Shown one piece after another: positions 19,402-51,177 of a stretch of 58,272 bases of DNA (position 1 is the first letter of the stretch; each line of letters opens with the position of its first letter). The position numbers and the translations under genes are program-made. The stretch comes from Woeseiaceae bacterium (GTDB lineage: Bacteria > Pseudomonadota > Gammaproteobacteria > Steroidobacterales > Woeseiaceae), in assembly GCA_013001045.1 (NCBI GenBank), contig JABDNG010000123.1, positions 1 to 58,272 on the forward strand, given 5' to 3'. The notes beneath the pieces are model-generated. The model did no database searches. It was not told the DNA's origin and saw only the letters and a list, made by a program, of their open reading frames with translations.

Positions 19402-20241
19402 TCAATAGTATCCGTACGCGTTGTCGCTGGTGCTCTCGTCGCATCTGTTAACCACGACACCGAGCATGTTTGTCTCCGCCAGCAAGCCCATCGTCTTTTG
19501 GAGTAATACTCGGTCCGTCTGACCCTGTGCGACTACAAGCAGTACAGCGTCGACTTGGGGGCAGAATGCCAGTACGTCGTCGTCGACCATTATCGGCGGC
19601 ATGTCAAATATGACAATTGTTCGGTCCGATTGCTGCCGAATCCATGCCAGCAATTCTTTCATCCGCGGGCCTGATAGCAAATCTGAGGCATGATCAACCG
19701 CCCCGCCGTTTGGAATGATCGAAATCCGTTTCAGACCCGATGGACTGTAGACGATATCCGGGATTTCTGCAGTCCCGTTCAAATACTCTCCAATGCCATT
19801 CTTCATTTCGCTATCGAATCCGAAGTATGTCGCGACCTTGGAGCGCTTCAAATCAAGGTCTACAAGCAATATTGATTGATTGACGTCTCGTGCAAGACTT
19901 ATAGCGAGATTCGAAGCTGTCAGTGTCTTACCCTCACCGGCACCCACGCTGGTAACTACCAATGTGCGCCATTTATGGCTGCGCATTCGCTGCAGCACTC
20001 TCGTTCTCAATACTTTGTATGCGGCGATAGCAGCACGATCTTCGAGTTCCGATACCAGACAACTCTCTTCCATAGCCTCCTTGTCCGTATGGGCGGTCTG
20101 AAATACTCGAAAAATCCCGGAGCTCGGCTCTTCCGGCTGACGCGCTTTATCAGAACTCGCATCCTGTTGCGGCCGTTGCTGGACTGGTTCGCCTCGGGAT
20201 TTTTCAATCGCCTTCTGTATGGAAGTTTGTAATTTGGACAT
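19402..20241 (-). CDS. Cytoplasmic tyrosine autokinase (BY-kinase, CpsD/Wzc-C type)
   Basis: The 279-residue protein has Walker A (SVGAGEGKT), Walker A' (ILLVDLDLKRSKV) and Walker B (TIVIFDMPPIMVDDD), the set that defines bacterial tyrosine kinases. The N-terminal ~90 residues are Q/E-rich and presumably link to the membrane partner. The tyrosine cluster is very short: the protein ends NAYGYY. In this family autophosphorylation cycles control polymer length and export. The partner is the Wzc-like co-polymerase just upstream (11 bases apart), with which it shares a promoter. It matches the separate autokinase found in exosortase-linked loci. Confidence 0.9.
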   Translation of the reverse strand: MSKLQTSIQKAIEKSRGEPVQQRPQQDASSDKARQPEEPSSGIFRVFQTAHTDKEAMEESCLVSELEDRAAIAAYKVLRTRVLQRMRSHKWRTLVVTSVGAGEGKTLTASNLAISLARDVNQSILLVDLDLKRSKVATYFGFDSEMKNGIGEYLNGTAEIPDIVYSPSGLKRISIIPNGGAVDHASDLLSGPRMKELLAWIRQQSDRTIVIFDMPPIMVDDDVLAFCPQVDAVLLVVAQGQTDRVLLQKTMGLLAETNMLGVVVNRCDESTSDNAYGYY

Positions 20242-20252
20242 TTAATAAGGCC

Positions 20253-21899
20253 TTAGGTGAAATAGAACAAGACGATGGCCGCTATAAGGAATATCGTCGT
20301 CCCTCTGATCAGGTTCGCTCGCCGCTGGCGCGTCTTTATCGTCAATGAATTTTCAATTACAGGAATGGTCGCCAATGGCACCATATCCATGGTCACGATA
20401 ACGTCTTTACTTCCACGAACGGTGCTATCGGTCATCTCGGTAAACAGCATCGAGCCGACGCCAACAGTGCCGGCCAAAAACATGCCAAGAACGAAAATAA
20501 CCGCACGAGGCGGACCGCTCGGTGATTGCGGAACGGAGGGCGCCACGATTTGAACCAGGCGGGCCGCGATATCAGTTGACTCAAGAGCCTCGCTCTGTCG
20601 TGCGATGACCGCTCGCCCCTGCAAATCGTCGAAATTTTCCTGGGCGCTCTGAAGTCGACGGGCTATCGCCTGAAATTCGCCTTCGACTTGCGGTGTGCGA
20701 GTCAGTCGGTCTTCGTATTCCGCGATCTTCTGGCGCAGTGCCGGTTGGCGCCTCCTCAGCTCATTCAATTGCGTATCGATAGAATTCAGTTCGGCGCGCA
20801 GTTGAATGTAACGCGGGTTCTCGAGTAACTCGGCCTGCGCCACGCCTCCACCCGGACGTCTTTTTGATTCAAGGGCTGCAAGCTCTCTCTTGTATCGAAT
20901 AACATCGGGGTGCTCACTGGAATACTTCTGTTCTGCCTCACCGAGCTTGATGCGCAGTTCAATTATTTCGAACGTGTCATTGCGCCCAGGGGTTGCGCTC
21001 GCAATCGCGTTGATTTCGCGTCGAATCTTGACCACGTCTGGATGATCCGGCCCATAATTTGCTACAAGCGTCATATATTGCTGCTCGAGCCCCGCAAGGC
21101 GGTCAGTTACTCCACTGTGTTGCCCAATTTCTTCAAGCTGAGCCTGAACGAATGCTCGCTCCTGCGAAAGCGTCCGGATGCGTGGCTGTATGTCTTCAAG
21201 GTCACGTTCCGCACGCTGAATAACCGACGTATTGAGCCCCACCAATTCTGGCAAACAACACGCATGCGTAACCTTAAAATCTGCAATCTGTTTTTCCAGA
21301 TCGAGGATATCGTTCTCCGTAATACTCATCTGTTCCTTCAAGAAGGTCGATGTTGAAGTCGCTCGTTCTGTTCGGGACAGGCGGTCTGCATCCAGAAATA
21401 ACCTGGCCAGATGTTGGGCGACTCGAAATACAAACTCAGGATCTGCGCCAACAGACGCTACTTGAACCCCTGTAATCAAATCCGCCTCACGACCACTGTT
21501 GGGTGAAATCACTTGCTGAGTCACAACCGAGACTTCGACGCTGTCGCGTATTATGTCAATTCTTTCCGATTCCGTTAATGTGTCCTCGCTCGACGGAAAG
21601 ATGGCGGCGTCGTTTGCCATAACAAGCAAATTCTCTCGCTTAAGAACTCGATCTTCCAGTTCTGCGATATATCGATCTGCATAAGCTGTAACATCAATCG
21701 GTTCCAGCGTCCGTATATTGGACCCTTCCAGATTTATGTCCATCTTGGCAAATGAAGTATATTCATCCGGCAAGAACAACGACAACATGAAGGCGACTGC
21801 AATAATAGGCAGTGCAACGACAAGTAATACGCCGAGGCGTCGTCGAAAGGCAGCAATGTAGTCGCTTGCTGTATATTCCAGGTTCGAATCCATATTCAA
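20253..21899 (-). CDS. Wzc/GumC-like polysaccharide co-polymerase (chain-length determinant)
   Basis: The 548-residue inner-membrane protein has a Wzz domain: first membrane segment about residues 20-45, then a long periplasmic part with heptad-like coiled coils (about 175-440), a second segment near 470-490, and a third at the C-terminus ending VLFYFT. It has no kinase domain; this is supplied by the next gene. It resembles the chain-length determinant of exosortase A-linked EPS loci. It should couple Wzy polymerisation to export through the Wza-like channel. A sigma-54-like promoter lies 42-56 bases upstream. Confidence 0.9.
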   Translation of the reverse strand: MNMDSNLEYTASDYIAAFRRRLGVLLVVALPIIAVAFMLSLFLPDEYTSFAKMDINLEGSNIRTLEPIDVTAYADRYIAELEDRVLKRENLLVMANDAAIFPSSEDTLTESERIDIIRDSVEVSVVTQQVISPNSGREADLITGVQVASVGADPEFVFRVAQHLARLFLDADRLSRTERATSTSTFLKEQMSITENDILDLEKQIADFKVTHACCLPELVGLNTSVIQRAERDLEDIQPRIRTLSQERAFVQAQLEEIGQHSGVTDRLAGLEQQYMTLVANYGPDHPDVVKIRREINAIASATPGRNDTFEIIELRIKLGEAEQKYSSEHPDVIRYKRELAALESKRRPGGGVAQAELLENPRYIQLRAELNSIDTQLNELRRRQPALRQKIAEYEDRLTRTPQVEGEFQAIARRLQSAQENFDDLQGRAVIARQSEALESTDIAARLVQIVAPSVPQSPSGPPRAVIFVLGMFLAGTVGVGSMLFTEMTDSTVRGSKDVIVTMDMVPLATIPVIENSLTIKTRQRRANLIRGTTIFLIAAIVLFYFT

Positions 21900-26966: not shown

Positions 26967-27248
26967 CACTTTCGCCGTCGACGCATGTCGCGCGACTTAT
27001 AGGAGGTTTTGAGTTGGTCGGATTATAACCACAATGAATGCGCCCTGTTGCGATCAGGCAAAATGAAGGCTATGCCGCATTCAGTTACTGGACGCAGCTC
27101 ACATTTTCGGGATAAGCGAGCAACCCGACCTATCGAATCAATCACCGTTGCAATATGATTGCGCGATGCCCGATTCGATACGCCGCATGCTCTCTAAACG
27201 GACCCACAGGTCGTCTGCCCCCCGGCAAGCGGTCCTTTCTTTCTGAGC

Positions 27249-32737: not shown

Positions 32738-33982
32738 CTACTCGCCCGCAACGAACGAAGGAGGCAATGGCCTCACCGTTTGCGGAATTGAATCCGGAGA
32801 GGAGCCGTCTGGAGACATATCAGAAAACTCCGTATTCTGATCGCCGACCTTTACGTTTGCAAAATAAACAACCTTATTGTGCGCGTCGTTCCAGACTTGC
32901 TCTTTGGCCATATATAGTTGTAGCTTGACGCCGTAGCCACCATTGTTACTTGTAGCCCGAACGTCATACCCTATGCCGTGGTCAAAGTTCATTCCACCAC
33001 GCGACATCTGACCTGGAAAAACGTCTAGAACGAAAATCCACGGACCATTATCTTCACGCTTCCAGATCTTCAGAAACCCTCGACCACCACTAGCGGCGCC
33101 ACGCGAATCAGAATTGAGCTGAACAACCCAATCCGTCCAGCCACCCAAATTGACGCTCTGCAATGCGGCATGTGACGTTGCTACATCAGGAAAATGCACC
33201 AATCCTTCAGGCCAAGAATCCGATCTCGGATAGGGACCGCCGCCCTCATTACCCGTATAGAACATCCCATGTTGCCACGGGTGATCGGTTAACGGTATCA
33301 ACGGAAATTCGTCGATCCAGCGGTTCCACAACTTCCACCCTGCAGTGCCATCAAGAACAATCGCGATAGCATCTGTGTTGCCAGAGCCGCCCGCTTCGTT
33401 CTTTGGCTTTAGTCCGAAGCGCGGTCCACCGTATCCCGAACTACCTGCAATGTAATCGCTCGGCAAATACACGCTGAATGACAACCAACGCGTTGCATGG
33501 TTTGGAATCGCATTATAATAATCTGAGTGCGTGGCCTGCATCGAAAGTGCCGTTCTTCGTCGGTTGCATAGCCCTCTGTCGCAATCGTCAGGCTCTACGC
33601 CACCGCCGGCGCGACTCTTTACGGTAAATTTCGCTGAGTATTCTTGTCCGCGTATCGGACCTTGAGGAAAATAGACGCCGTCCACGGTTCTTTCTGTGCT
33701 TGCGACTAATGACAGAAAATCGCCGTTGCCGACATGAAGCGGATTCTGTGAGCCGTATTGAATTGGCCTACCATATGGCTCCATATGCTGGAATCGAATA
33801 TCCTGGATTGGTGGCGGTCCATCATAGTGGTGCCATTGCGTAAAATCCCCTGTTGCGAAGTCACCAGACCAGATAATTTCGGCCGAACTGACCGCGGGCA
33901 ATGCAGCAAGGAGAGAAGCCAGCATGCCGACCTTTACGCCGGCGCAAAAATCAGAAATCTTCGGGTGTATTGTAGGAAACAT
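32738..33982 (-). CDS. Secreted polysaccharide lyase-like protein (jelly-roll, PF14099 type)
   Basis: From ATG 33982 the protein has 414 residues and a signal peptide with a long n-region (hydrophobic core MLASLLAALPAVSS then A-EIIW). The mature part is a beta-sandwich with RWLSFSVYLPSDYI, characteristic of the Polysacc_lyase family, followed by a conserved aromatic-rich region (WPEGLVHFPDV, GGWTDWVVQLN). Relatives cleave glucuronan, alginate or heparin-like polymers. The frame is open to 34090; ATG 34030 with AGGA upstream is an alternative start. It is transcribed towards the oxidoreductase, with 71 bases between the stops. It may release or remodel the EPS. Confidence 0.75.
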   Translation of the reverse strand: MFPTIHPKISDFCAGVKVGMLASLLAALPAVSSAEIIWSGDFATGDFTQWHHYDGPPPIQDIRFQHMEPYGRPIQYGSQNPLHVGNGDFLSLVASTERTVDGVYFPQGPIRGQEYSAKFTVKSRAGGGVEPDDCDRGLCNRRRTALSMQATHSDYYNAIPNHATRWLSFSVYLPSDYIAGSSGYGGPRFGLKPKNEAGGSGNTDAIAIVLDGTAGWKLWNRWIDEFPLIPLTDHPWQHGMFYTGNEGGGPYPRSDSWPEGLVHFPDVATSHAALQSVNLGGWTDWVVQLNSDSRGAASGGRGFLKIWKREDNGPWIFVLDVFPGQMSRGGMNFDHGIGYDVRATSNNGGYGVKLQLYMAKEQVWNDAHNKVVYFANVKVGDQNTEFSDMSPDGSSPDSIPQTVRPLPPSFVAGE

Positions 33983-35512
33983 GTCAATAAATCCAGTTAT
34001 AGAAGGACAATCGCTGTAGTTTTGGTCCATCGTCAACATTCCTGTACGACAATTTGTTGGGCGGCAAACCCGAGTCTGGACGCGTAACAATCACTATCGA
34101 TCTAACGCCGCTAAGCGGCTTGGCAAGGAAGTTGCAAAGAGTGCGTCGAATCGGCGCAAGAACAATCGCATTGAAAGCGTGTTCTTAGGTCCTGGCAACC
34201 CCGCTGTCATAGGACCTTGTGCCCCTTAGACCGGTAATTTTGCGTCTCCGCCTTTCGACGGATTTGCCTTTTTCAGCCGACTTGATTATGGGCAGAAATT
34301 CGTGAATAACGCAAGTGCACCGCTCATTGATCTTTTCATTTAACTTAAGCAAAGCGCCCAGCATTGATAGTTTCTTAAATTAGGTCTCATTGCGCCCCTT
34401 GGTAACTTTGAATTAACAAGTCTGGAGGAGTTCCCCATAACGATAATCGAAATGGGAATGGCCAACGTATATTGACTGCACATCCCGTACCAGAATACGG
34501 ATTATATTTCAAATTCAAATACTTATGAGCTCCCACGCTCGATCGATGTTGTTTGTTTGGACCAATGTTGTCGGTAATCGCGGACGGCTATTTAAAATCA
34601 CCGCAAGTAAGTTGACATAAACTGTTGATATTGTTGTACGCGACACGAGTCTCTGTTTTGCGACAGCGGCCTGAACGAAATCCGGACGAAGCCTCACGGT
34701 CTTAGGCGGCTCTTATTCCGACTGTACAGGTCCCCCTGTCCTTTGGCGTATCCAGACAGACTGCGGGTCAGGACAATTTCTTCTTCGGCACCATGTGTGC
34801 CCACAGGTGCCGGCCAAGAAAACCCGACAATGAAAGATATTTTGCTGGGAGCGGTGGCGCGCGCATAAACTCTTTGTGGATGTGAACTACATAGAAGTCA
34901 CTAGATGCTGCCCTATCATCGCACTGTGCCTTGAACCAAGTTTTTGTACGGCAATTCTTTCACGTCAAGTCTCACCCGAACGCGGTCGATCGACCCCGCA
35001 GTGAGGTTGGCGCCTGACCATTTTCCGCCGCGACGGATAATTTGCTCAGCGTCACCGCCTTGGCCAAGGCCGATTTCGAGCGTCTGCTTTTAGGCTAAAT
35101 TGATTTTGTCCAAGCACGTAAGAATATGTCTTTCCTTATCGTAGCGGAATCGATCGTATCCATTGAACAACGTCCCGTATTCAATTAGAAAGTTTACCAA
35201 TCCACCTACTTTCGTTTCACCATTAGGATGATGTTGCCAAGAGACCCGCGCATCAGTTCTCATTCATTTTACAAAACTGCAAATTTGGATTCGACTTGGC
35301 CAGTTGCATAGGTCGGGGATGTCGAATTTTCTTTCCAGGCCGCACTCTCGACGGAGTATCGAACGAAGTACACTAGGGCGCAAAGGATTCCGATAATACT
35401 ACCTTCTATCGGTACATTCGGAAATTCTGCCTGTCCCTCTTTGCCTCGTGTATGATCTGGCCTTCTCGACAAATGCTCCTTTATTGCAGTCACTTTACCC
35501 GTAGGCGCTCGT
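33983..35512. other. 1.5-kb region without an intact gene
   Basis: This is one of the largest gaps in the window. The right part (34768-35263) is a methyltransferase pseudogene on the minus strand. In the left part, 33983-34767, no homology was recognised; short frames there look random. A clear promoter for the amidotransferase at 35513 was not found. Confidence 0.6.
34768..35263 (-). pseudogene. Decayed class I SAM-dependent methyltransferase
   Basis: Translation of the minus strand from ATG 35263 gives RTDARVSWQHHPNGETKVGG and, after 57 codons, an in-frame TAA (35092-35090). Directly after it the same frame reads TLEIGLGQGGDAEQIIRRGG and then SGANLTAGSIDRVRVRL, the SAM-binding motif of a known methyltransferase group (typical form LEIGLGQGADSEQLIRRGA). 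The frame then stops again near 34919; a shifted frame gives GFLGRHLWAHMVPKK, which resembles the family C-terminus, before a TGA at 34768. About 100 codons of the middle are missing. The gene is thus truncated by at least one stop, one frameshift and a deletion. It marks a lost modification step. Confidence 0.75.
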
Positions 35513-37417
35513 ATGTGCGGAATCGTCGGTATCTGGGCGAAAAATTATGGCAAGGATCGCCTTCAGGGCGACCTTGAGAATGCGGTTGCATCTCTGCGAC
35601 ACCGAGGCCCGGATGACCGAGGCATCTGGATGAATGAGTCGGGGCTGGGGCTTGGTCACACCCGGCTATCCATTCTTGATCTCTCTCCTTCCGGCCATCA
35701 GCCGATGGTTTCGACAGACGGACGTCACGTTATTGTCTTCAATGGGGAAATCTACAACTTTGCCGAAATTCGGCAGAAGCTTGCATCTGCAGGGCACACG
35801 TTCATCGGCAGTGGTGACACCGAAGTAATGCTTCACGCATTCAAGGAATGGGGATCTGATGCGATCAAACAATTCATCGGAATGTTCGCGATCGCGCTCT
35901 GGGATGAACAGGAGCAAACCTTAGAACTTTATCGAGACCGGGTTGGCGTAAAGCCCCTGTATTTCGGCTGGGACGGAAATAATTTATGTTTTGCTTCCGA
36001 ACTCAAGGCCCTGCGAGCTTTCCGACATTGGGCTCCGGAGATCGACCAGCAATCGTTGGGCGAGTTCCTCCAATACGGGTATGTCCCGGACGATCGCAGC
36101 ATATACAAGGATGTCCACAAACTGAGGCCCGGCCACCGGCTGAGATTTAAGGCGAGACAGCAGCCGGCCGTCGAACCATACTGGTCGGTGGTTGACGCTC
36201 TGGACAGTCCCCTCAAGGGCAGCGACCGGGAGATCGAGGCAGAGCTTGAGGCATTGCTCATCGACGCGTTCCAGTATCGCATGGTCTCTGACGTTCCGGT
36301 TGGAGTTTATCTGTCAGGAGGTATCGATTCGTCGCTGGTCACCGCGATGCTCGCAAAGCACCATGATCAAGAAATTCGAACCTTCACTATCGGATTTACG
36401 GAAGAGAGTCACGATGAATCGCGGTGGGCCCGCAAAGTAGCAGATCATTGCGGTACAGATCATACCGAGTATATTCTCGAGCCTCGCGAGGCACTCGACA
36501 TTGCCCGTGACTGGGGCAGCTTATTCGATGAGCCATTCGCTGATTCATCCAGCATCCCGACATTGCTCGTTTCACGGCTCGCAAGCCAGGAGGTGAAAGT
36601 CGTTCTTTCCGCCGACGGTGGCGACGAGTTGTTCAGCGGCTACAACACCTATGCCACCGCGCTGGACAGAATTGACAGGCTGACTCGAATCCCGAAATGG
36701 ATTCAGCGCGCTTCACGAACGGGCCTGGACCTGCTTTCGCCAAGATTCGTTGACACGATGCTTTCCGGAATCCACTTTCCTGATACGAAACGGGACGCCC
36801 TCGTGCGAAGTATTCGTGAGTTCCGAGAGATGCTCAAGGACCCAACGCCTGGCGGGCTCATGAACAATCTGATGTCCCATTGGTATCCAGACCAAATCAA
36901 CAGCCTGCTCGGACACTACGACCGTCCTGAATCGAGCGGTATCTCATATGCGGCAGATCCAGCGATCCAGATCAGTCTCCGGGATTTTCATCACTATTTG
37001 CCCGGTGACATCCTCACCAAGGTAGACCGAACTACCATGGCTGTCAGTATCGAAGGTCGAGAACCACTATTGGATCATCGCCTGGCGGAGTTCGCGTTCC
37101 GCCTTCCCTCGCACTTGCGGCAGGGCGAGCTGGGAACGAAGCACATACTCAGGAAAATCCTCTACCGTTATGTCCCTCGAGAATTCGTGGACCGCCCCAA
37201 AAAAGGTTTCTCCATTCCCAAGCATGCCTGGCTCGAGAGCGACCTTAGGGAATTGGTCGGCGACTTCCTGTCACCGGAGCGCATTCGGAGTGCTGGCATT
37301 ATGGATCCGCGTCTGGTCAGTCGAGTGATCAGCGATTTTTACGGGGGCAACAAATCCCTGGCAAATCCCCTGTGGTTCCTACTGACCTTCGAAATGTGGA
37401 GGAATCGCTGGGCTTGA
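35513..37417 (+). CDS. asnB: Asparagine synthase-type amidotransferase 4
   Basis: A 634-residue AsnB family protein: MCGIVG start (Cys2), RHRGPDD, NGEIYN, SGGIDSS at residues 268-274, and LSADGGDELFSGYN in the synthetase domain. All catalytic motifs are present. It is an isolated plus-strand gene between the methyltransferase pseudogene and the kinase-methyltransferase fusion, which points the opposite way. It is the fourth such enzyme in the window and, like the others, is likely to amidate a carboxyl sugar; the acceptor is unknown. Confidence 0.9.
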   Translation: MCGIVGIWAKNYGKDRLQGDLENAVASLRHRGPDDRGIWMNESGLGLGHTRLSILDLSPSGHQPMVSTDGRHVIVFNGEIYNFAEIRQKLASAGHTFIGSGDTEVMLHAFKEWGSDAIKQFIGMFAIALWDEQEQTLELYRDRVGVKPLYFGWDGNNLCFASELKALRAFRHWAPEIDQQSLGEFLQYGYVPDDRSIYKDVHKLRPGHRLRFKARQQPAVEPYWSVVDALDSPLKGSDREIEAELEALLIDAFQYRMVSDVPVGVYLSGGIDSSLVTAMLAKHHDQEIRTFTIGFTEESHDESRWARKVADHCGTDHTEYILEPREALDIARDWGSLFDEPFADSSSIPTLLVSRLASQEVKVVLSADGGDELFSGYNTYATALDRIDRLTRIPKWIQRASRTGLDLLSPRFVDTMLSGIHFPDTKRDALVRSIREFREMLKDPTPGGLMNNLMSHWYPDQINSLLGHYDRPESSGISYAADPAIQISLRDFHHYLPGDILTKVDRTTMAVSIEGREPLLDHRLAEFAFRLPSHLRQGELGTKHILRKILYRYVPREFVDRPKKGFSIPKHAWLESDLRELVGDFLSPERIRSAGIMDPRLVSRVISDFYGGNKSLANPLWFLLTFEMWRNRWA

Positions 37418-37484: not shown

Positions 37485-39122
37485 TCAGCGCGGCTGACGA
37501 CCGATCAGCAACGGTCGCTCATAGCCCGATGGCGAAATCACTTCAATGTCGCTGAAATTCGCGTCCGAAAGGATTTTTCGGGCATACTCGACAGATGCTT
37601 TCTCGTAGGTATCCGGATCAGATCTTCCGATTCGGCGCGACGTATTGCATTGAAGTACGAAGGTGTCGGTGATCGTCGACAAATGGCGAGCTATCGCGGC
37701 AATGTCGTCGCGATCAAGGTAGTAGATACAGCACAGCGCCATTACGAAGTCGAATTTTCCCAAGTCCATCCTGATGATGTCCATCATATTCGAGTGCAGA
37801 TATTGGAAGTCGTAATTCGCATTATCAGAATACTCGAAAGCTGCGCGTAAAAACTCCCCTTGCTCGAAGAATTTGTCGTCGAGTTCGACGCCCAGAACTT
37901 CGCGCGCACCGTTGCGCAGCAATTGTAGCGAGTTGAATGCGTTATTCGCGCCGAGGTCGAGGACCCTCGCTCCCTGCAGCGGCGGTAAGGCATGCTTCAG
38001 TAGAAAGCGCCAGCGGCCATAGCCGTTGCTGTTATCCCACAGATTGCCGATCGAAACGCCCGCAGCGAAGCAAGCCGGCGCATAGACCTCGCTTTCTGGA
38101 ATCGCTATCGCTCGCTCGCGAAGCGAGTCTGTCGTCAGCTTATTTGTCCCGAAGTGCAAATTAAATTTCTCGATGTCGCAATCCGCCAGGCGCCGGAAGG
38201 CACGATCTCCCAGTTTCGGATGATAGGAGGCACTATTGAAATCGATGACATACGGTTTGCCGGAGTCCTTCTCGATAACCACGTTGCCGAATTTAATGTC
38301 GCCCCATACGATGCGCTGGCTGTGCATAATCCGAAGCTGGCGAAAGAGATCCTCGATAAATGCATCGTCGACGACAGTTGCAAGTCGCGTTCGCCCTTCT
38401 TGAATTCGCGCTAGACGCCTCTCCTCGGGGTCGACATTGGCGAGTTCGTGACGCTCAACGTCTCGGTCGCGCACGATGGCGCCACGGCGAGCGAGCGCTT
38501 CGCGAAGGACGGTGCCCGCGACGTACGACATTTCGATCTGCAAGCGGTCGAAATCGATATCGAGAAGGGCGGGCACATTACAATTCGCACGAGCGAGCGT
38601 GTCGAGAGCATGGACCTCTGTAAGAAATGCCTGCTGATTGCCGCGATAATCTTTACGTACCGCAAGTATTCCATTTCGAGCGACCAGAGTCAGTCCGAAA
38701 CGTTTTCTGGGAACAAAGTTCTCCGGGGTGACCGTGGCAATGTCCTCCAGCGCACCCACATCCGATCGCAAAAATCCGTCCTGATCAAATTCACCAACTT
38801 CCAGTACCGATGCCGCAGCGATTTCCGCCGATTTCGCATCGTCCGCGTTAAGTACGTCTGTTTCTGCGCGATAGCCACTTTGCCCATGCGTCAACATCGC
38901 ATCCCGATTCTCGCGAAGACCGCTCAGCGCCGCTGAATCGGACGACGAGAACATCATCCGAATGCGATTATGAATGATCACTCGGGGCGCGCTTAGGCGG
39001 GTCGCGAACCGCTCCCAGTAGACATCACGCGCAGTGGCTAGCGCGTTGGCGATCCCTATGTGGCGTACAGATAAGACAATTCTGACTATTCCACGCAGGC
39101 GCGGAAAATTCGAAGTAGACAT
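37485..39122 (-). CDS. Kinase-methyltransferase fusion protein
   Basis: The 545-residue protein joins two enzymes. Residues about 135-320 form a protein-kinase-like fold: lysine in AVRKD (K157), glutamate E169, catalytic loop IVWGDIKFGNV (D275, N280) and metal-binding DFN (D294), in the style of LPS kinases (WaaP/RIO-like). Residues about 380-545 form a class I methyltransferase with VLDLGANNAFNSLQLL as motif I and VELDD as the acidic second strand. The first 130 residues show no clear domain. It probably phosphorylates and methylates a sugar or a lipid carrier. The 380 bases before the sulfotransferase stop contain no other clear gene. Confidence 0.8.
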   Translation of the reverse strand: MSTSNFPRLRGIVRIVLSVRHIGIANALATARDVYWERFATRLSAPRVIIHNRIRMMFSSSDSAALSGLRENRDAMLTHGQSGYRAETDVLNADDAKSAEIAAASVLEVGEFDQDGFLRSDVGALEDIATVTPENFVPRKRFGLTLVARNGILAVRKDYRGNQQAFLTEVHALDTLARANCNVPALLDIDFDRLQIEMSYVAGTVLREALARRGAIVRDRDVERHELANVDPEERRLARIQEGRTRLATVVDDAFIEDLFRQLRIMHSQRIVWGDIKFGNVVIEKDSGKPYVIDFNSASYHPKLGDRAFRRLADCDIEKFNLHFGTNKLTTDSLRERAIAIPESEVYAPACFAAGVSIGNLWDNSNGYGRWRFLLKHALPPLQGARVLDLGANNAFNSLQLLRNGAREVLGVELDDKFFEQGEFLRAAFEYSDNANYDFQYLHSNMMDIIRMDLGKFDFVMALCCIYYLDRDDIAAIARHLSTITDTFVLQCNTSRRIGRSDPDTYEKASVEYARKILSDANFSDIEVISPSGYERPLLIGRQPR

Positions 39123-39502: not shown

Positions 39503-40405
39503 CTAAATATACCCGAAGTGTTTCATGCTCGGACCAGCAGACTCTAGAAAACTCTCTCTAATTTCCTTGTGTTCACTCATATACTCTACTTGTTCCATAT
39601 TCATTTTGGGAGTTACAACTTCAGCGAATTCGTTCCATGAGTACCATTGTAATTCCGTCGCCTCACCACCGGTTCGCTCAGTGGATCCTTTTCCTTTATT
39701 GATAACCAGTCGAAATTTCTCGACCAACGATTTGTCGAGATCTGCCAACTCAAAAACCGTTGCCGATGCTTGCGCGGTATCAGAAACAATATCTTCATAC
39801 TTCACCAGGTGGAAATTGGGATACTCTTCTGCGTCTCGAATCATTCTTTCACAAACGGCTTTATAAAGTGCCCCCACTTCATGTGCCGGTTTTCCCCACC
39901 GACGAATATGACTCTCACAAATAGCGAATCCGTTTCTGACCAGACCAAAAAAGGTCGCGTCCGGATACATCTTGGCGAATTCCACAGTCAGGAAGGCCAG
40001 ACCATTCAGATTCTTACAGAGGAGCCTGGATCGTAGAATTTCATCGTTAGAATACTTGACGGCTTCCGACTTAAATAAGTTCTGTGTTTGCCCCAGCGCT
40101 TGGCACTTGTCGTCAAACAATACTCTATCTATAGTGCGTCTACTAAACGCCGAAAACGCTCGACGTGGCTTCAAGCTTCGGATTGAAAAGACATCTTGTC
40201 GCTGCGCAATAGCCACAGGTGCGTATCGCAAAAGTTTTGTCACGCGCGTATGAAAATTCTCATCGGGCTTGCCGTGGAATACTTGTTGTGTTTCGCCACG
40301 CGGGGAACAGACATCCGGGTGCGAGCGCAAAATGTTAAGCAGAATACTGGAACCACCTCTTCCGAATCCGACTATGAAGATCGGTCTCTGGTTCAGCATT
40401 GTCAT
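39503..40405 (-). CDS. Sulfotransferase
   Basis: A 300-residue protein with the 5'-phosphosulfate loop GFGRGGSSILLNILRSHP near residue 13, and the later LVKYEDIVSDTAQASATVFE segment that matches the downstream end of the cofactor site. Such enzymes move sulfate from PAPS to a hydroxyl or amine of a sugar. It is cytoplasmic with no membrane span. It is coupled to the GT4 upstream by a four-base ATGA overlap. Sulfation would make the EPS acidic. No PAPS synthesis genes lie in the window. Confidence 0.85.
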   Translation of the reverse strand: MTMLNQRPIFIVGFGRGGSSILLNILRSHPDVCSPRGETQQVFHGKPDENFHTRVTKLLRYAPVAIAQRQDVFSIRSLKPRRAFSAFSRRTIDRVLFDDKCQALGQTQNLFKSEAVKYSNDEILRSRLLCKNLNGLAFLTVEFAKMYPDATFFGLVRNGFAICESHIRRWGKPAHEVGALYKAVCERMIRDAEEYPNFHLVKYEDIVSDTAQASATVFELADLDKSLVEKFRLVINKGKGSTERTGGEATELQWYSWNEFAEVVTPKMNMEQVEYMSEHKEIRESFLESAGPSMKHFGYI

Positions 40406-41595
40406 AAATCTCTAGATCGTTCAATTGTGTGCATTGTAGTTATCAGAACACGCTCGCTCCCCGCCACCATCTTTTCGAACGTAAATTCTTCGGAAACTTT
40501 TCGCTCTGCAGACTGACCCATCCTGGCTGCCTCCGAGTCATTTTCCACAACAGACTGTATACAGGTGGCCAAAGCCGATGAATCCCCGACCGGAAAAAGA
40601 AGACCGGTTTCTCCATCAATTATCGCCTCTGGCAAGCCACCTATTCTTGGCGCGATCATCGGAACTCCCAGAGCCATTGACTCAAGCATAGCCATTGAGA
40701 ACGTCTCGACCGCGGTAGAAGCAAGTACCGTGGCGTTGCTTGCAACAATAAGAGGGCGAGTATCCGGGATATTGCCGAGGAACCTAGTGCGATTCGTTAG
40801 TCCGGCCGCTTCTGCGTAGGCTTCCATCTCTGGCCGCAGATCGCCATCACCAGCAAAAACCAAGCACGTATTCTCATGATTCCTTGAAAACGCGTCGATA
40901 AGGAGCTTATGCCCCTTTTCCGGGCGAAAACCTGCAATGCAGGAAATTACAAAAGTATCCGCCGATATACTCAAATCGGCTCGCAACTGACGCGCCTGCT
41001 CAGCAAAATCAACGCGACGGAAACTCTCCGGGGACACCCCATTATGTACCACGGTTGAGGTACGCAATAGCTCCGGATACTTCTTAATCCAATGATCTCG
41101 CTGGTGTTCGCACACGAAGACTACGGCGGGCAGGCGGCGTAGCATTCTCCGGTACACCAATCGGCCGTGCATCTCCTGCTTTGGCCCACGGTTGATGGTC
41201 GTATGAATTGCAGCGACGACCGGTGGCTTGCTGTCAGATAGTTTCGCTGCAAGCCACGCAACCAGCGTCGCGAATTCCATAACACCTTGCACGACGTTAA
41301 TCCCTTCCCTGTCGATAATCCCGGCGACCTTGCTAATCAAAGACAGGTCAAATTTGAACTTGCGTTGCACGTGGTGAAACTGGACCTCGTCAGACAAGCG
41401 GCCCCGCTGATCAATCTGTGGCTCGAAGCTGCATAGGTGGATTGTATGGCCCCTGGCCGCCAGGCCGTTGGCAAGGTCCACGGCCTGCGTCTCGGCGCCA
41501 GCACGTATCAATGATGGCACGACCAAAAGGCACCTCATCCTATTTCTTGGATTCTTTGATTGCGGGTCCATCTGGATACTTCCATCATCATTCAT
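40402..41595 (-). CDS. Glycosyltransferase family 4
   Basis: A 397-residue GT-B enzyme. After a short polar leader comes RMRCLLVVPSLIRAGAETQA, the glycine-rich acceptor loop. The donor domain has SCIAGFRPEKGHKLLIDAF and STAVETFSMAMLESMALG, the E-x7-E motif. It starts immediately after the stop of the GT4 upstream (41598-41596) and overlaps the sulfotransferase start, so the three form one unit. It probably adds a residue that the sulfotransferase may then modify. Confidence 0.85.
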   Translation of the reverse strand: MNDDGSIQMDPQSKNPRNRMRCLLVVPSLIRAGAETQAVDLANGLAARGHTIHLCSFEPQIDQRGRLSDEVQFHHVQRKFKFDLSLISKVAGIIDREGINVVQGVMEFATLVAWLAAKLSDSKPPVVAAIHTTINRGPKQEMHGRLVYRRMLRRLPAVVFVCEHQRDHWIKKYPELLRTSTVVHNGVSPESFRRVDFAEQARQLRADLSISADTFVISCIAGFRPEKGHKLLIDAFSRNHENTCLVFAGDGDLRPEMEAYAEAAGLTNRTRFLGNIPDTRPLIVASNATVLASTAVETFSMAMLESMALGVPMIAPRIGGLPEAIIDGETGLLFPVGDSSALATCIQSVVENDSEAARMGQSAERKVSEEFTFEKMVAGSERVLITTMHTIERSRDL

Positions 41596-42726
41596 TCAGG
41601 CGTACCTCGTGACTAATTCACCGAAGAATTCTTCATAAAGATCAAGTACTCGCTCAGGCGAGTGGTTGCTCGCGAAATATCTTCGGCACTTTTCCCCCTC
41701 CGAAGTTCGTTCAGTATTATTCCGTAGCCACGCGGCCACACAGTCCGCCATCTCCTCAACCGTATTAACCTGGCGGCCCAACGGATCTCCTTCGGCACGC
41801 GCTCCGCTGTCAACGAAAGATACGGTAGGAATACCGCGCGACCAAGCTTGTAGAAAGGTATTCGGAAAACCCTCGCTGTCTGACGTGTTGACAAATATCG
41901 AAGCCTCGTCAAAGTGACCCTCAACCTTTGAAAAAGGTACGAACCCAAGAAACTCGACATTTGGAATCGTTTCCGCACGCGCCTTGATCGAATCGAATAA
42001 TTGTGCCTCTCCAATACCGGGCCCACCTATCATTTGAAAACGATAAGCCGGCAGCGCCTCCGCAACGTCAAGAAATAACTCTGGCCTTTTGAGTTTTCTA
42101 ATTGTCGACACCCAAAGAACGTGTCGGTTAGCGGACGCGGCTTGATTCGCAGCAGCCGCGTAGCAATTCGGAATCTGCGTAGAATCTCGCTCGAAATTAA
42201 GGCGACAAAGGCGTGCCTGCTCTTCGTTCTGCGTTAGTATCCTGGCAACGTGCCGCAATCCATACTCGTAAATCCAGCGATCTCTCGCGTATCGAATTCT
42301 AGGTGTTTTTCGCTCAAAATCAGGATTTCCTGCCGCCGCAAACACAGACTTTTTGGCATGCCGACGCGCAAATGCCGCGACAACTCCAGTAAGCATCCCC
42401 GCCGCGCGCTGGTAGTAGATATCCGCATCGCAACGCTTGAGACAGCTCCAGATGCTCGCAAGCCGTGGCCAGACAAACCGCAGAATCGGAATCCCCTCAT
42501 CAGGCCTGCAAGCCCGAAATACCTTGACGCCATCAATCTCGACCCGGTCTTGCTGGCCGAAGTTGAGACAAATCATGGATACCGGGTAGCCGCGTGCCGC
42601 GAGACCTTTGGCTATCGTGACCTGTTGTAGCTCCGCTCCGCCTATCACAGGAGTCTCTTCGTCCCTGGCGAGCAACGGAAACGCATTTGGCGCTACAAAA
42701 CAGATACTTGGACGTCGATCACTCAT
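41596..42726 (-). CDS. Glycosyltransferase family 4
   Basis: A 376-residue GT-B enzyme. The N-terminus PSICFVAPNAFPLLA and the loop PVIGGAELQQVTIA form the acceptor side; VSTIRKLKRPELFLDVAE opens the donor domain; SDSEGFPNTFLQAWSRG carries the donor motif with the second glutamate replaced by glutamine (E-x7-Q). It lies 8 bases after the P-loop kinase gene and directly before the next GT4. The E-to-Q change is seen in some GT4 enzymes and need not abolish activity. Confidence 0.85.
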   Translation of the reverse strand: MSDRRPSICFVAPNAFPLLARDEETPVIGGAELQQVTIAKGLAARGYPVSMICLNFGQQDRVEIDGVKVFRACRPDEGIPILRFVWPRLASIWSCLKRCDADIYYQRAAGMLTGVVAAFARRHAKKSVFAAAGNPDFERKTPRIRYARDRWIYEYGLRHVARILTQNEEQARLCRLNFERDSTQIPNCYAAAANQAASANRHVLWVSTIRKLKRPELFLDVAEALPAYRFQMIGGPGIGEAQLFDSIKARAETIPNVEFLGFVPFSKVEGHFDEASIFVNTSDSEGFPNTFLQAWSRGIPTVSFVDSGARAEGDPLGRQVNTVEEMADCVAAWLRNNTERTSEGEKCRRYFASNHSPERVLDLYEEFFGELVTRYA

Positions 42727-42734
42727 GTCGCGAT

Positions 42735-43385
42735 TCAGCCGTGCGAGCGTTCGGCGGATTTCAAGGCAGCGACGATATCCGCTACGGCAACCTCGCCACC
42801 CTCTTCTTCTGCATTGACCCGAACCACCCGCATTGGAGGGTGCAAAGATTGCTTGATGCGTGCCATCACTTCAATCATCTCAGTAATGATTTCTACGTCG
42901 GCCCTGACAGATTTGCGGGTGAAATGGTCGTTGGGTCTGTTTCTTGCGGACCTCCTGGCAAAGGCCGTCTGTGCACTGACCTCAACAACAATGACAACGT
43001 CAGGTGGCTTGATCCTCCGGAACAACATATCTGCAAGCTGGTCCATTTCGAGCCCTCTGCTGTTCCTGTAGAGCGAGATTATTTTGTGGAATAGCCCTTC
43101 GCAGGTTATCTGTATGCCTCCGGCTTGCTCGCATAATTCGCGCCTTATGCTGTAACTGGCTATTACAGCAAAAGCGCGCTTGGCACGAAACAGCGTTATC
43201 GGTCTCGTCATCACACTCAAGTAGACCGCCCTTGTCGCCAAAAAAAGATTTCGTGGGGCGGCCTTATGGATCTGAATAAGGTCGAAGTTTTGGGCGGCCA
43301 GTCCTTCGTCCTTCAGGGTGCCACGCACCCGTTCAGACAAAAACGTCTTTCCCGCGCCAGCGGCACCGATGAACTCAACCAGCAT
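42735..43385 (-). CDS. P-loop kinase-like protein
   Basis: A 216-residue protein with Walker A (EFIGAAGAGKTFLS) at the N-terminus and PDVVIVVEVSAQTAFARR, which looks like Walker B plus a lid in thymidylate- or dTMP-kinase-like proteins. It has no membrane span. Its place at the head of the GT4-GT4-sulfotransferase run suggests phosphorylation of a sugar or of a small EPS precursor, or an APS-kinase-like role, but no specific motif confirms this. The target is unknown. Confidence 0.6.
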   Translation of the reverse strand: MLVEFIGAAGAGKTFLSERVRGTLKDEGLAAQNFDLIQIHKAAPRNLFLATRAVYLSVMTRPITLFRAKRAFAVIASYSIRRELCEQAGGIQITCEGLFHKIISLYRNSRGLEMDQLADMLFRRIKPPDVVIVVEVSAQTAFARRSARNRPNDHFTRKSVRADVEIITEMIEVMARIKQSLHPPMRVVRVNAEEEGGEVAVADIVAALKSAERSHG

Positions 43386-43517: not shown

Positions 43518-44966
43518 ATGTCGGGACTAATGTCACGAGGCGTCATTCTAACTGCCTCCCGACTATCCAATTTCGCAATTCTTATGTTAAGCCCCTTACT
43601 GCTGGTACGCATCCTCGATGTCGCGGACTACGGCGCATACCAGGAGTTCATGATCTATGCGACGGTATTCACCACGATCTGTGGACTCGGAATCGATTCG
43701 AGCCTGACGTACTTTCTTCCGCGTTACCCAAACCAGGAGCGCGAGTATGTATCACAAAACTCCGCTCTGATCCTTGTCTACAGCTCCGTATGCCTAACTG
43801 TTTTTATAATTGCACGCAAAGCTTTCCTCGAAATCGCGAGCTACGATTTTGTTTTACCGCTAGCCACCTACGTCTTTTGCTTCGTAAATCTCAACTGGCT
43901 GGAGTATTTCTGGATCGCCAAGCGGAGGACCGACCTCGTTCTCTATTATTCGGCCGGCCGCCTGATATTGAGAGTCACTATCCTGCTTACTGTGGCGTAT
44001 GTTACCCGTGACGTGGAAAAAATTATATGGTCGGTTGCCGGCGCGGAAGCCCTGCGACTATCCCTCGTCGCCATTTACCTTTTGAAAGCGAACCTGCTGA
44101 CGGTCAGCATTAGTCCTGCGCGCATACGTCAGCAACTGCGATTCGCCGCTCCGGTCGGCCTGGCCGGGCTGATGCAGCAAGGTAGCCGGAATATCGGCAA
44201 GCTGTTTGTCGGTAGCGTGCTGGGACCGGTTGCGCTGGCGTATTATGCGGTTGCCAGTTACGTGTTGCCCATGGTCCTGGTCATTCGCGGCTCGATCGCG
44301 GATGTAGTCTTTCCGGAAATGGTGAGGACGAAGAGTAACGCACACGGCGCTTTGCGCCTTTGGCAACGTTCCAACATCGTGTTCTGCTTCCTCCTGTTTC
44401 CTCCGTTCGTGTTGTTGACGCACTACGCCGAGCTTTTCGTCACGACGCTATTCACGGAGGAATACAGACCCGCCGTACCCGTATTTCAGATTTATCTGCT
44501 CTGGCTAATCCGGCGCTGTTTCAATATGGACACGCTGCTTCGGACCAGGGGCAAGACTGGATTCATGCTCTCTGGAACCGGACTTTCCGTCATCATGAAC
44601 CTCGCGCTCATGGTCGTGTTATACAAGTGGCTGGGGCTTATCGGCCCGGCAATCGCTTACATAAGCGCGGAAGTCCTGCTCGAACTTTATTACGCGATTC
44701 TTGTTAAAAGAGAGTTCGGTCTAAGTGTTGGTACACTGGTGGATTGGAAAGGAATCTGGCGTGTCGGCGCCGGTTGCCTCGCAGGCATCCCACTGTTGTT
44801 CGTTGCCGATCAACTTCCCGGCCCGGAGCTCGCACGGGCGGCGGTCGCATCTCTTGCCTTTGTTGCTATCAGCTGGCTTGTGGCCTACCGTTTGGGCGTT
44901 ACCGATATCGGTCGCCTGGTGAGCTACGCGCGATCGATTGTCGGCAAATTCACACCGTTAAAATAA
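43518..44966 (+). CDS. wzx: Wzx-type polysaccharide flippase
   Basis: A 482-residue membrane protein with about 12-14 hydrophobic segments, in the MOP/Wzx family. It begins RGVILTASRLSNFAILMLSP and has the conserved loop FAAPVGLAGLMQQGSRNIGK near the middle. Wzx flips the undecaprenyl-linked repeat unit from the cytoplasmic to the periplasmic face. It ends 6 bases from the convergent polymerase gene. Some residues in mid-protein are basic, fitting an anionic cargo. Confidence 0.85.
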   Translation: MSGLMSRGVILTASRLSNFAILMLSPLLLVRILDVADYGAYQEFMIYATVFTTICGLGIDSSLTYFLPRYPNQEREYVSQNSALILVYSSVCLTVFIIARKAFLEIASYDFVLPLATYVFCFVNLNWLEYFWIAKRRTDLVLYYSAGRLILRVTILLTVAYVTRDVEKIIWSVAGAEALRLSLVAIYLLKANLLTVSISPARIRQQLRFAAPVGLAGLMQQGSRNIGKLFVGSVLGPVALAYYAVASYVLPMVLVIRGSIADVVFPEMVRTKSNAHGALRLWQRSNIVFCFLLFPPFVLLTHYAELFVTTLFTEEYRPAVPVFQIYLLWLIRRCFNMDTLLRTRGKTGFMLSGTGLSVIMNLALMVVLYKWLGLIGPAIAYISAEVLLELYYAILVKREFGLSVGTLVDWKGIWRVGAGCLAGIPLLFVADQLPGPELARAAVASLAFVAISWLVAYRLGVTDIGRLVSYARSIVGKFTPLK

Positions 44967-44972
44967 ACAGGA

Positions 44973-46274
44973 CTAGATTGGCGCCGTATCGATTTTTTTT
45001 GCGACTCTAATCGACGCCCGTCGCGTGTCGGCAGGCTGATTCCCGGTCTCCGCTATTGCCAGGCGAAGTGTAATGCCCACATATGCCCATATGTAGAGCC
45101 ACGGTTGGTGAAGCTCCCCAAAGAAAATCGAAACCAACAATGCCAGGAAACCGAACACTAACGCGATCAGCCAAGATCTGGACTCGGATGAGGCGCGACG
45201 CAATCCAATCCGAGCCACTCTTAGCACATTGGCTGCTATCAGGCCAAAAAGAGAGACGCCAATCATGCCAAGATTGAACAAAATATTAAGGTAGGAGTTG
45301 TGGGTTGCAAAAGTGAAGTTTCTGGATGACTCATAAGCGTACCAACCAAACCCAGTCGCAAAAGACACTGGATAATCGAGCATTTTATCCAATGCTCGCC
45401 CCCAAATCATTGTTCGTCCCGAACTCGCCTCGTAGCCGCTTGATTCCAGAATTCCGAAGCGATGAATCAGGAGGTCACCATAACCGACAGCGAACGCACC
45501 AATCACTACGACAACACTCAGGAGCAATATGGCGAACGCAGCACGCATAAGTATACGAGGTGGAATATTGTCCCGCAGGTAAATGGCACCGACTACTCCG
45601 CCGACAAGCAAACCAACGACCGCGCCCCTTGACACTGCCATCAAAAACGCAATTCCGGAGAGGAACCCACCAATGCCAGCCAATAATTTTTTGAAGCCAC
45701 TCGCATTCCAGTAGATTACGGCGATCCCAGGTAAGAACAGCGCCAGGAATGACGCGTACTCATTTGCATTACCTATAGGTCCTACCGTCCTGCCTGCTTC
45801 ATCCGATTTTTCCCCAATTAAGCCGAGATCCGGAATATTCAACATATCGATGACGGTTACGACATTTCCTACGATAACCAACCATACGATACTGCGAAGC
45901 AGCCAAATAGCACGTTGAGCATCGCTTACGCCGTAAAAAAATATTAGTAAAACCATTAGATTTTCTATCGGTCCTGCTTTGAGCGTCATTGCTGTTCTGA
46001 TAGGGCTATATCCTGGATATTTCATGACCAGTAGAATTACAACCCAGCTGAATATCGCATAGCCGACATAGATGACGAACGGCGTAATGACCGATAACAG
46101 TTCCAGCTTACGCCGTCGAGTCAACGCGGTCTCCACCGCAAGCGCAAAGAAAATCAGATATAAGAAGCCATTCTTGACGCTTAAACCGGGTGCCAAGCTC
46201 AAATCGAAACCCAGCACGCGCGAGGTAAATAGAACGAAAAATAGCGTGAAGAGGAGGTAGTGCATTACTGACAA
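44973..46274 (-). CDS. Wzy-type polymerase / O-antigen ligase family protein
   Basis: A 433-residue membrane protein with about 10-12 segments and a periplasmic loop holding EASSGRTMIWGRALDKMLDYP, typical of the O-antigen ligase (WaaL/Wzy, PF04932) family. It begins MSVMHYLLFTLFFVLFTSRV. It probably polymerises the flipped repeat unit. WaaL and Wzy share this fold, so ligase activity cannot be excluded, but the nearby flippase and Wzc-like protein favour Wzy. Confidence 0.75.
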   Translation of the reverse strand: MSVMHYLLFTLFFVLFTSRVLGFDLSLAPGLSVKNGFLYLIFFALAVETALTRRRKLELLSVITPFVIYVGYAIFSWVVILLVMKYPGYSPIRTAMTLKAGPIENLMVLLIFFYGVSDAQRAIWLLRSIVWLVIVGNVVTVIDMLNIPDLGLIGEKSDEAGRTVGPIGNANEYASFLALFLPGIAVIYWNASGFKKLLAGIGGFLSGIAFLMAVSRGAVVGLLVGGVVGAIYLRDNIPPRILMRAAFAILLLSVVVVIGAFAVGYGDLLIHRFGILESSGYEASSGRTMIWGRALDKMLDYPVSFATGFGWYAYESSRNFTFATHNSYLNILFNLGMIGVSLFGLIAANVLRVARIGLRRASSESRSWLIALVFGFLALLVSIFFGELHQPWLYIWAYVGITLRLAIAETGNQPADTRRASIRVAKKIDTAPI

Positions 46275-49770: not shown

Positions 49771-51177
49771 ATGTTACTTGGCGCTCAATCTAGACAAAAT
49801 ATCCCGTATCTTCTGTTGCTTGCATTGCGCCGGGTTTCCGCCGCGGTCATAACAGTGGCCGCATTGCGTTGCACGATGTGGGTCTATGATATCGCCTTCA
49901 CCGAACCTTACCAGGCCCTGTTTATTATCGCGGCGCTGCTGGCCTTGATGCTGTTCCCGAGCAGGACGGAGGATGCCGATGTCCTGCCGCCAAAGGTCGT
50001 GAATCTGTCGATCGCGATCATTGCTTCCTGGTTTCTGCTCGTCGCGCTGCTGCTGATCTTTGGCTATGCCACCAAGACTTCGTCGATATTTTCACGCAAA
50101 GCCCTTTTTACGTGGATGCTGGTCACACCGCCGCTGCTTATAAGCGCGGACATCGTCGCGAGAATCATCATATCCCGCGTACTGCTGTCCGTTGGCAACC
50201 GGCGACGCGTCATTATCGCTGGCGCAAGTGAACTTGGACATCAACTGGCAACGAAAATCCAGTCATCGCCTGTGTCAGGCATGCAGATACAAGGATTCTT
50301 TGATGATCGAGGCATGGAGCGGCTTAATAACCACCCGTCGGGACCGCTGCTCGGTAATCTGAAGGAGCTTCCCGCATACGTACGCGAAAACGGCATAGAC
50401 CTGATATTCATCGTTTTGCCAATACGCAACATACAGCGCGTCACCGAGCTACTGGATGCACTGCATGACACGACCGCTTCGATCTATTATGTACCCGATG
50501 TCTTTGTCTTTGACCTGATCCAGTGCCGCACGAGCAGTATCGATGGAATGCCCGTCGTTGCACTGTGCGAGACGCCGTTTCAAGGTACACAGGGCATCGT
50601 CAAGCGCGTCAGCGACTATGTCATCGCATCGATCATCCTCATACTGACCAGCCCATTAATGATCGCCATCGCATTGGCGATCAAATTGACGTCGCCCGGT
50701 AAAGTGATCTTCAAGCAGCGGCGTTATGGGCTCGACGGCCGCGAAATTATTGTCTACAAGTTTCGCACGATGACGGTCGCAGAAGATTCCGACGTCATCC
50801 GGCAAGCGACCAAGGATGACGACAGGATCACAAAAGTTGGCGCGATACTGCGAAAATATTCACTGGACGAATTGCCGCAGTTCATCAACGTGCTGCAAGG
50901 CCGAATGAGCGTCGTCGGGCCCCGGCCGCACGCCGTCGCTCACAACGAAGAGTATCGGCCATTGATCAAAGGCTACATGGTGCGCCACAAGGTCAATCCG
51001 GGTATTACCGGGCTTGCCCAGGTCATGGGCTATCGCGGCGAAACCAGCACTGTCGATGCCATGAAGAAACGCGTGGAACTCGATCTGGAGTATTTGCGCA
51101 ACTGGTCGCTAGCGCTCGATTTACGAATAATTCTCCGCACCGTTCAGACCGTCTGGAACGACAAGATGGCCTATTAG
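49771..51177 (+). CDS. Undecaprenyl-phosphate sugar transferase (WcaJ/PglC type), initiates the repeat unit
   Basis: A 468-residue protein: N-terminal membrane segments (about 15-140), a Rossmann-like domain (VIIAGASELGHQLATKI), one more membrane span near 280-300 and the C-terminal bacterial sugar transferase domain with KQRRYGLDGREIIVYKFRTM, LDELPQFINVL and GPRPHAV. It puts the first sugar-1-phosphate on undecaprenyl phosphate. The long N-terminal part places it with the WcaJ/GumD-like enzymes. Its end is 8 bases from the convergent PrsK gene. A sigma-54-like site lies upstream. Confidence 0.9.
   Translation: MLLGAQSRQNIPYLLLLALRRVSAAVITVAALRCTMWVYDIAFTEPYQALFIIAALLALMLFPSRTEDADVLPPKVVNLSIAIIASWFLLVALLLIFGYATKTSSIFSRKALFTWMLVTPPLLISADIVARIIISRVLLSVGNRRRVIIAGASELGHQLATKIQSSPVSGMQIQGFFDDRGMERLNNHPSGPLLGNLKELPAYVRENGIDLIFIVLPIRNIQRVTELLDALHDTTASIYYVPDVFVFDLIQCRTSSIDGMPVVALCETPFQGTQGIVKRVSDYVIASIILILTSPLMIAIALAIKLTSPGKVIFKQRRYGLDGREIIVYKFRTMTVAEDSDVIRQATKDDDRITKVGAILRKYSLDELPQFINVLQGRMSVVGPRPHAVAHNEEYRPLIKGYMVRHKVNPGITGLAQVMGYRGETSTVDAMKKRVELDLEYLRNWSLALDLRIILRTVQTVWNDKMAY

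Follow-up and report, generated by a model that had tools for sequence, protein, structure and literature searches.

Analysis of a 58,272-nucleotide stretch of a Woeseiaceae genome (hereafter the window) points to a bifunctional glycan-modifying enzyme in which a RIO/Bud32-like kinase domain is fused to a class I SAM methyltransferase domain (Table 1). As an analogue of WbdD, to which it appears unrelated as a fusion, the protein would methyl-phosphorylate a lipid-linked repeat unit as a decoration, a reading that we consider about evenly poised between right and wrong. In the proposed route, the kinase domain would phosphorylate a sugar hydroxyl on the lipid-linked repeat unit at the inner membrane face, and the methyltransferase domain would next methylate that phosphate to give a methyl phosphodiester. 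The product is likely to be a methyl-phosphorylated sugar within the repeat unit and, given the Wzx/Wzy-type cluster, would more probably decorate the unit before flipping than act as a stop signal.

The gene opens with an ATG and runs as a single frame of 545 codons without internal stops. Pfam matched both halves of the product weakly, just above curated cut-offs: APH in the kinase half (27.0 bits, cut-off 23.2), and Methyltransf_25 (27.4 bits, cut-off 27) and Methyltransf_9/DUF1698 (27.2 bits, cut-off 23.8, which places the domain in that superfamily) in the methyltransferase half. Pkinase also matched the first half, under its cut-off, and the best NCBIfam matches, the TIGR04290 methyltransferase and Bud32, both fell far under theirs. 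AlphaFold modelled the whole chain from a 16-row alignment with a pLDDT of 78.2 and a pTM of 0.72 (residues 1–94 lie below 50), and the kinase domain alone, from nine rows, with a pLDDT of 87.4 and a pTM of 0.84. The initial annotation, which had read a kinase fused to a methyltransferase from five kinase-fold residues and a SAM motif in the second half, is borne out on these points: both folds are modelled within one frame, that of the kinase included, and in the family alignment K157, E169, D275, N280 and D294 all occur at those numbers, as does VLDLGANN. A coiled coil looked for in the first 130 residues was not found, the best heptad score there being 0.35 against a shuffled mean of 0.42, whereas the same score, home-made rather than taken from a published coiled-coil program, gave 0.82 against 0.48 for WbdD residues 460–708. 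Residues 1–104 contain no transmembrane window either (best KD19 1.38). Because aligned two-domain homologues occur in other phyla, the fusion is no artefact of the assembly of this contig.

Table 1. Features of the fusion protein and of the surrounding cluster (window positions).
Feature	Coordinates	Strand	Basis or remark
Kinase-like/methyltransferase fusion protein, 545 aa	37485..39122	-	ORF call, Pfam, AlphaFold
N-terminal region, residues 1–104	38811..39122	-	Helices modelled at low confidence (AlphaFold)
RIO/Bud32-like kinase domain, residues 105–345 (about)	38088..38810	-	Pfam, NCBIfam, AlphaFold, fold comparison
Class I SAM methyltransferase domain, residues 345–545	37488..38090	-	Pfam, NCBIfam, structure model
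K157, ATP-binding Lys	38652..38654	-	Lys in 6/6 family rows covering the site
E169, C-helix Glu	38616..38618	-	Alignment
Catalytic loop WGDIKFGN, residues 273–280	38283..38306	-	D275/N280 match WbdD D351/N356
D294, metal-binding Asp	38241..38243	-	Aligned with WbdD D369
SAM-binding motif VLDLGANN, residues 387–394	37941..37964	-	Sequence, alignment
Y467-Y468	37719..37724	-	Aligned with WbdD H132-H133
R536 in GYxRP, possible WbdD R203 counterpart	37515..37517	-	By-eye match
Sulfotransferase	39503..40405	-	Upstream, same strand; Pfam
GT4 glycosyltransferase	40402..41595	-	Same strand; Pfam
GT4-like glycosyltransferase	41596..42726	-	Same strand; Pfam
Wzx-type flippase (Polysacc_synt)	43518..44966	+	Pfam, NCBIfam
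Wzy/WaaL-type protein (Wzy_C)	44973..46274	-	Pfam
WcaJ-type undecaprenyl-phosphate glucose phosphotransferase	49771..51177	+	Above NCBIfam cut-off
XrtA-type polysaccharide chain-length determinant	20253..21899	-	Best match, under NCBIfam cut-off
XrtA-associated tyrosine autokinase-like	19402..20241	-	Under NCBIfam cut-off

Judged by its genes, the window looks like an XrtA/Wzx-Wzy-type exopolysaccharide cluster, with an export protein, also under its NCBIfam cut-off, in addition to those tabulated. This setting bears on the earlier proposal that the enzyme controls chain length here, that is, that a WbdD-like methyl phosphate caps the non-reducing end. We regard such a terminator as improbable. 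The same two activities are predicted for it, the clusters of two relatives (L095 and L088) include a Wzt that bears a Wzt_C domain, and the same genome (G000) carries a Wzm/Wzt ABC exporter pair on contig C85 (L100:4009-5978). However, no ABC exporter was found among the 38 ORFs scanned of the 56 listed in the window, where Wzx-, Wzy-, WcaJ- and XrtA-type genes occur instead, along with the cluster's own chain-length protein and tyrosine autokinase; the 14 kb of contig C85 that were read contain no kinase motif, and no coiled coil was found in residues 1–130. Moreover, chains made by the Wzy route grow at the reducing end, so that capping the non-reducing end would not work here as it does in WbdD. 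WbdD itself presents the capped chain to an ABC exporter, which reads the cap (PMC3482155), so that a terminator in the window would be without its partner.

Several other genes in the cluster deserve mention. Directly upstream of the glycosyltransferases, on the same strand, positions 42735-43385 encode a 216-residue P-loop protein (GAAGAGKT) with weak AAA/dTMP-kinase similarity. Four asparagine-synthase-like amidotransferases (5353-7278, 10709-12595, 27249-29150 and 35513-37417), a Heparinase II/III-like protein (24990-26969) and a weak polysaccharide-lyase match under its cut-off (32738-34090) also lie inside the cluster. A sulfotransferase gene is found near the kinase-methyltransferase both in the window and in the relative L090 (3395-4426).

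Among the best 50 matches of a fold comparison, Rio1 comes nearest to the modelled kinase domain (Z 15.5, rmsd 2.4, 164 aligned), followed by PRPK/Bud32 (Z 14.7); eukaryotic-type kinases come next at Z 13–14, so the lead of the RIO/Bud32 group is small. The modelled similarity to the RIO/Bud32 fold extends over the kinase domain, and the score of 40.9 bits, against an NCBIfam cut-off of 125, places the protein outside the Bud32 equivalog. These fold matches would suit a regulatory RIO/Bud32-type protein kinase or ATPase that methylates a protein, but the glycan-synthesis context of the window and of most family loci seen leaves that alternative very improbable. In an hhalign comparison with WbdD, D275, N280 and D294 fall on D351, N356 and D369, within a domain-level match that is weak (probability 21). 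In WbdD, D351A/E abolishes kinase activity (PMC3482155).

Across the nine kinase-domain rows covering the catalytic loop, the catalytic Asp is kept in only two, this protein and L049, and is replaced by Ser in six (L050, L051, L053, L087, L088 and L090) and by Arg in one (L054). Since the kinase pattern of the family scan favoured Asp, the Ser majority is no product of that scan. The Asn is kept in five of the six Ser forms and the metal-binding Asp likewise in five of six, so these forms may still bind nucleotide. The tree unites the four methyltransferase rows that lack this Asp in one clade (100/99), and a single ancestral change could thus account for the loss. Such a pattern speaks for a sugar O-methyltransferase whose kinase-like domain, being a pseudokinase or a structural element, serves mainly to bind nucleotide, a glycan or a partner, with any phosphorylation by this protein secondary, and the sugar methyltransferase EvdMO1 is indeed among the fold matches of the methyltransferase domain. 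Retention of the Asp in the fusion protein and L049, together with the Asp-bearing kinases adjoining both unfused relatives, argues against this possibility, which we hold to be unlikely, if still a serious one. Outside the Asp-keeping members, the pairing of kinase and methyltransferase may persist for another reason.

Those unfused relatives bear directly on the preferred reading, in which phosphorylation and methylation of a glycan follow one another. In L095 the methyltransferase gene is followed, after 5 bp, by a kinase gene on the same strand (ABC1-like, HLDFHPGN); in L097, the kinase gene lies 3 bp away, again on the same strand (APH, HGDFCHAN). The catalytic Asp is intact in both neighbours (2/2). 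Both belong to kinase families other than that of the fused domain: against the family kinase profile, the L095 kinase gives a weak match (E 1e-4) and that of L097 none. The L095 pair also adjoins Wzm and a Wzt_C-bearing Wzt. In contrast, among 32 control loci of TIGR04290/CmoB-type methyltransferases, inspected with a flank of only about 1.5 kb per side, a single kinase motif occurred, in an ORF whose match seems coincidental. Most family loci seen sit among glycosyltransferases or other glycan synthesis genes. The repeated pairing of this methyltransferase family with different kinases in glycan clusters argues for a phosphorylated substrate and is consistent with a glycan being first phosphorylated and then methylated; we consider it the best evidence for such a substrate, though two of two is a small number.

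The fusion appears from these searches to be rare, and the family small and patchily spread across several phyla. Its members were recovered by a scan steered with artificial alignment rows, after single-protein searches had failed, and those named here are a minimum. At least six further fused proteins were found: L049, the closest relative (48% identity), at a contig edge; L050, full length, from Anaerolineales; L051, partial; L053, from Verrucomicrobiales, containing an assembly gap; L054, from Acidobacteria, in which a remnant of the kinase is left; and L087, encoded as a second copy in the same genome as L053. The last (L087:12731-14473) combines a degraded SAM motif (NLNPRNG) with a Ser-variant kinase, and both its active sites look lost. 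L090 consists of a kinase half and lies at the edge of its contig, and L088 (7356-8348) is a Ser-variant kinase-like protein without a methyltransferase, in a cluster holding NeuB, an ABC exporter with Wzt_C, Wzy_C and GT61 genes. L052 (L095 with its context) and L097 are methyltransferases only, the latter clearly of the family (30.7% identity over 251 aligned positions, E 2.5e-39).

Single-protein searches, run with patterns other than the catalytic motifs, found no full-length homologue in genome_contigs, nor was one found in viral contigs or plasmids; with L050 as query, the plasmids returned only TIGR04290 matches. In overlapping sets of 99 relatives and 369 class, 398 phylum and 73 genus genomes, the only full-length match was the window's own copy, the class and phylum sets having at most three candidates per genome scored among the matches listed, so that weak relatives could be missed. 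The family profile A6 recovered one further family protein in 298 genomes of the class of G854 and one in 193 genomes of the class of G858, and nothing beyond the own copy in 145 relatives of G853 or in 236 genomes of the class of G857. A 502-residue frame in L021, considered as a fusion, proved to be TIGR04290 plus an upstream frame, and L008, L009 and L018, considered as close relatives, are kinase only. An APH search of the own genome gave 11 matches, the fusion protein among them, and profile A12 found no useful match in the PDB.

The methyltransferase is, on its sequence, closer to the TIGR04290/CmoB group than to WbdD. The family profile matched TIGR04290 proteins at E ~1e-16, CmoB-like proteins at E ~1e-11 to 1e-14 and WbdD at E 1.5e-8; 11 of 13 controls outscored WbdD, and the two that did worse were other methyltransferases of the window. 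At 47.4 bits against an NCBIfam cut-off of 300, the protein nevertheless lies outside TIGR04290 itself. In a tree of 17 rows, a branch (92/91) separates the seven family rows from the others, and the six fused methyltransferases, drawn from several phyla, group together (100/98). WbdD lies beyond the family at the end of a long branch, its own placement unsure. The position of R536 is Arg in seven of nine family C-termini, and by eye its strand, RPLLIG, resembles the WbdD R203 strand RPMYLV, although MAFFT left the two unaligned. CmoB-like controls also carry an Arg near this strand, so the residue is non-specific, and we dropped it as proof of phosphate methylation.

In a limited collection judged from titles and abstract openings, we found no literature on this family. 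Two studies link the methyl phosphate of bacterial glycans with the ending of chains in O antigens that leave through ABC exporters (PMC3482155, PMC11231755). If the reading holds, a kinase-methyltransferase of separate origin in a cluster of the Wzx/Wzy type would show methyl-phosphate chemistry to be more widespread, and the family would give a sequence-based means of detecting it in other phyla. Its natural series of active kinase, Ser variant and unfused pair is suited to probing the need for the kinase domain. More tentatively, the family might represent a third, independently evolved class of glycan kinase-methyltransferases, in which a RIO/Bud32-type kinase, joined in the opposite order to a distinct methyltransferase clade, places methyl phosphate within the repeat units of the Wzx/Wzy route and not on chain termini, and one branch without the catalytic Asp keeps a fused pseudokinase; we find this possible but doubtful.

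Comparison with known systems places these features in perspective. Like WbdD of E. coli O9a (compared here through the sequence from E. coli HS, L096), the fusion protein unites a kinase and a class I methyltransferase in one glycan-cluster protein, and the WbdD-like reading stands as regards the two domains, their residues and the methyltransferase-kinase pairing in glycan clusters; a grouping with WbdD does not. WbdD runs methyltransferase-kinase-coiled coil, whereas here the kinase comes before the methyltransferase, and the two domains have their nearest kin elsewhere; BLASTP between the proteins gives E 6.8. WbdD is absent from the best 50 matches of both fold lists, kinase and methyltransferase, which is uninformative on its fold. 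H132/H133 of WbdD, tied to phosphate methylation in its description (PMC3482155), are Tyr-Tyr in the fusion protein, and WbdD works with an ABC exporter, which the scanned ORFs of the window lack. The N-terminal module of K. pneumoniae O7 ORF6 likewise pairs a methyltransferase with an APH-like kinase to give methyl phosphate, showing that such enzymes arise in unlike sequences (PMC11231755). Its order of methyltransferase-kinase-CBM-coiled coil-GT2, as described there, sets it apart, since the order here is reversed and Pfam finds no CBM domain in the 545 residues. The fusion protein most likely acts in the manner of both enzymes, but it is a member of neither group and apparently arose independently of the known kinase-methyltransferases. 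RIO/Bud32 kinases offer the nearest predicted fold for its kinase domain, which differs in being joined to a methyltransferase within a glycan cluster, and TIGR04290 and CmoB/DUF1698 proteins, the nearest sequence relatives found for its methyltransferase domain, differ in having no adjacent kinase motif at 31 of 32 loci.
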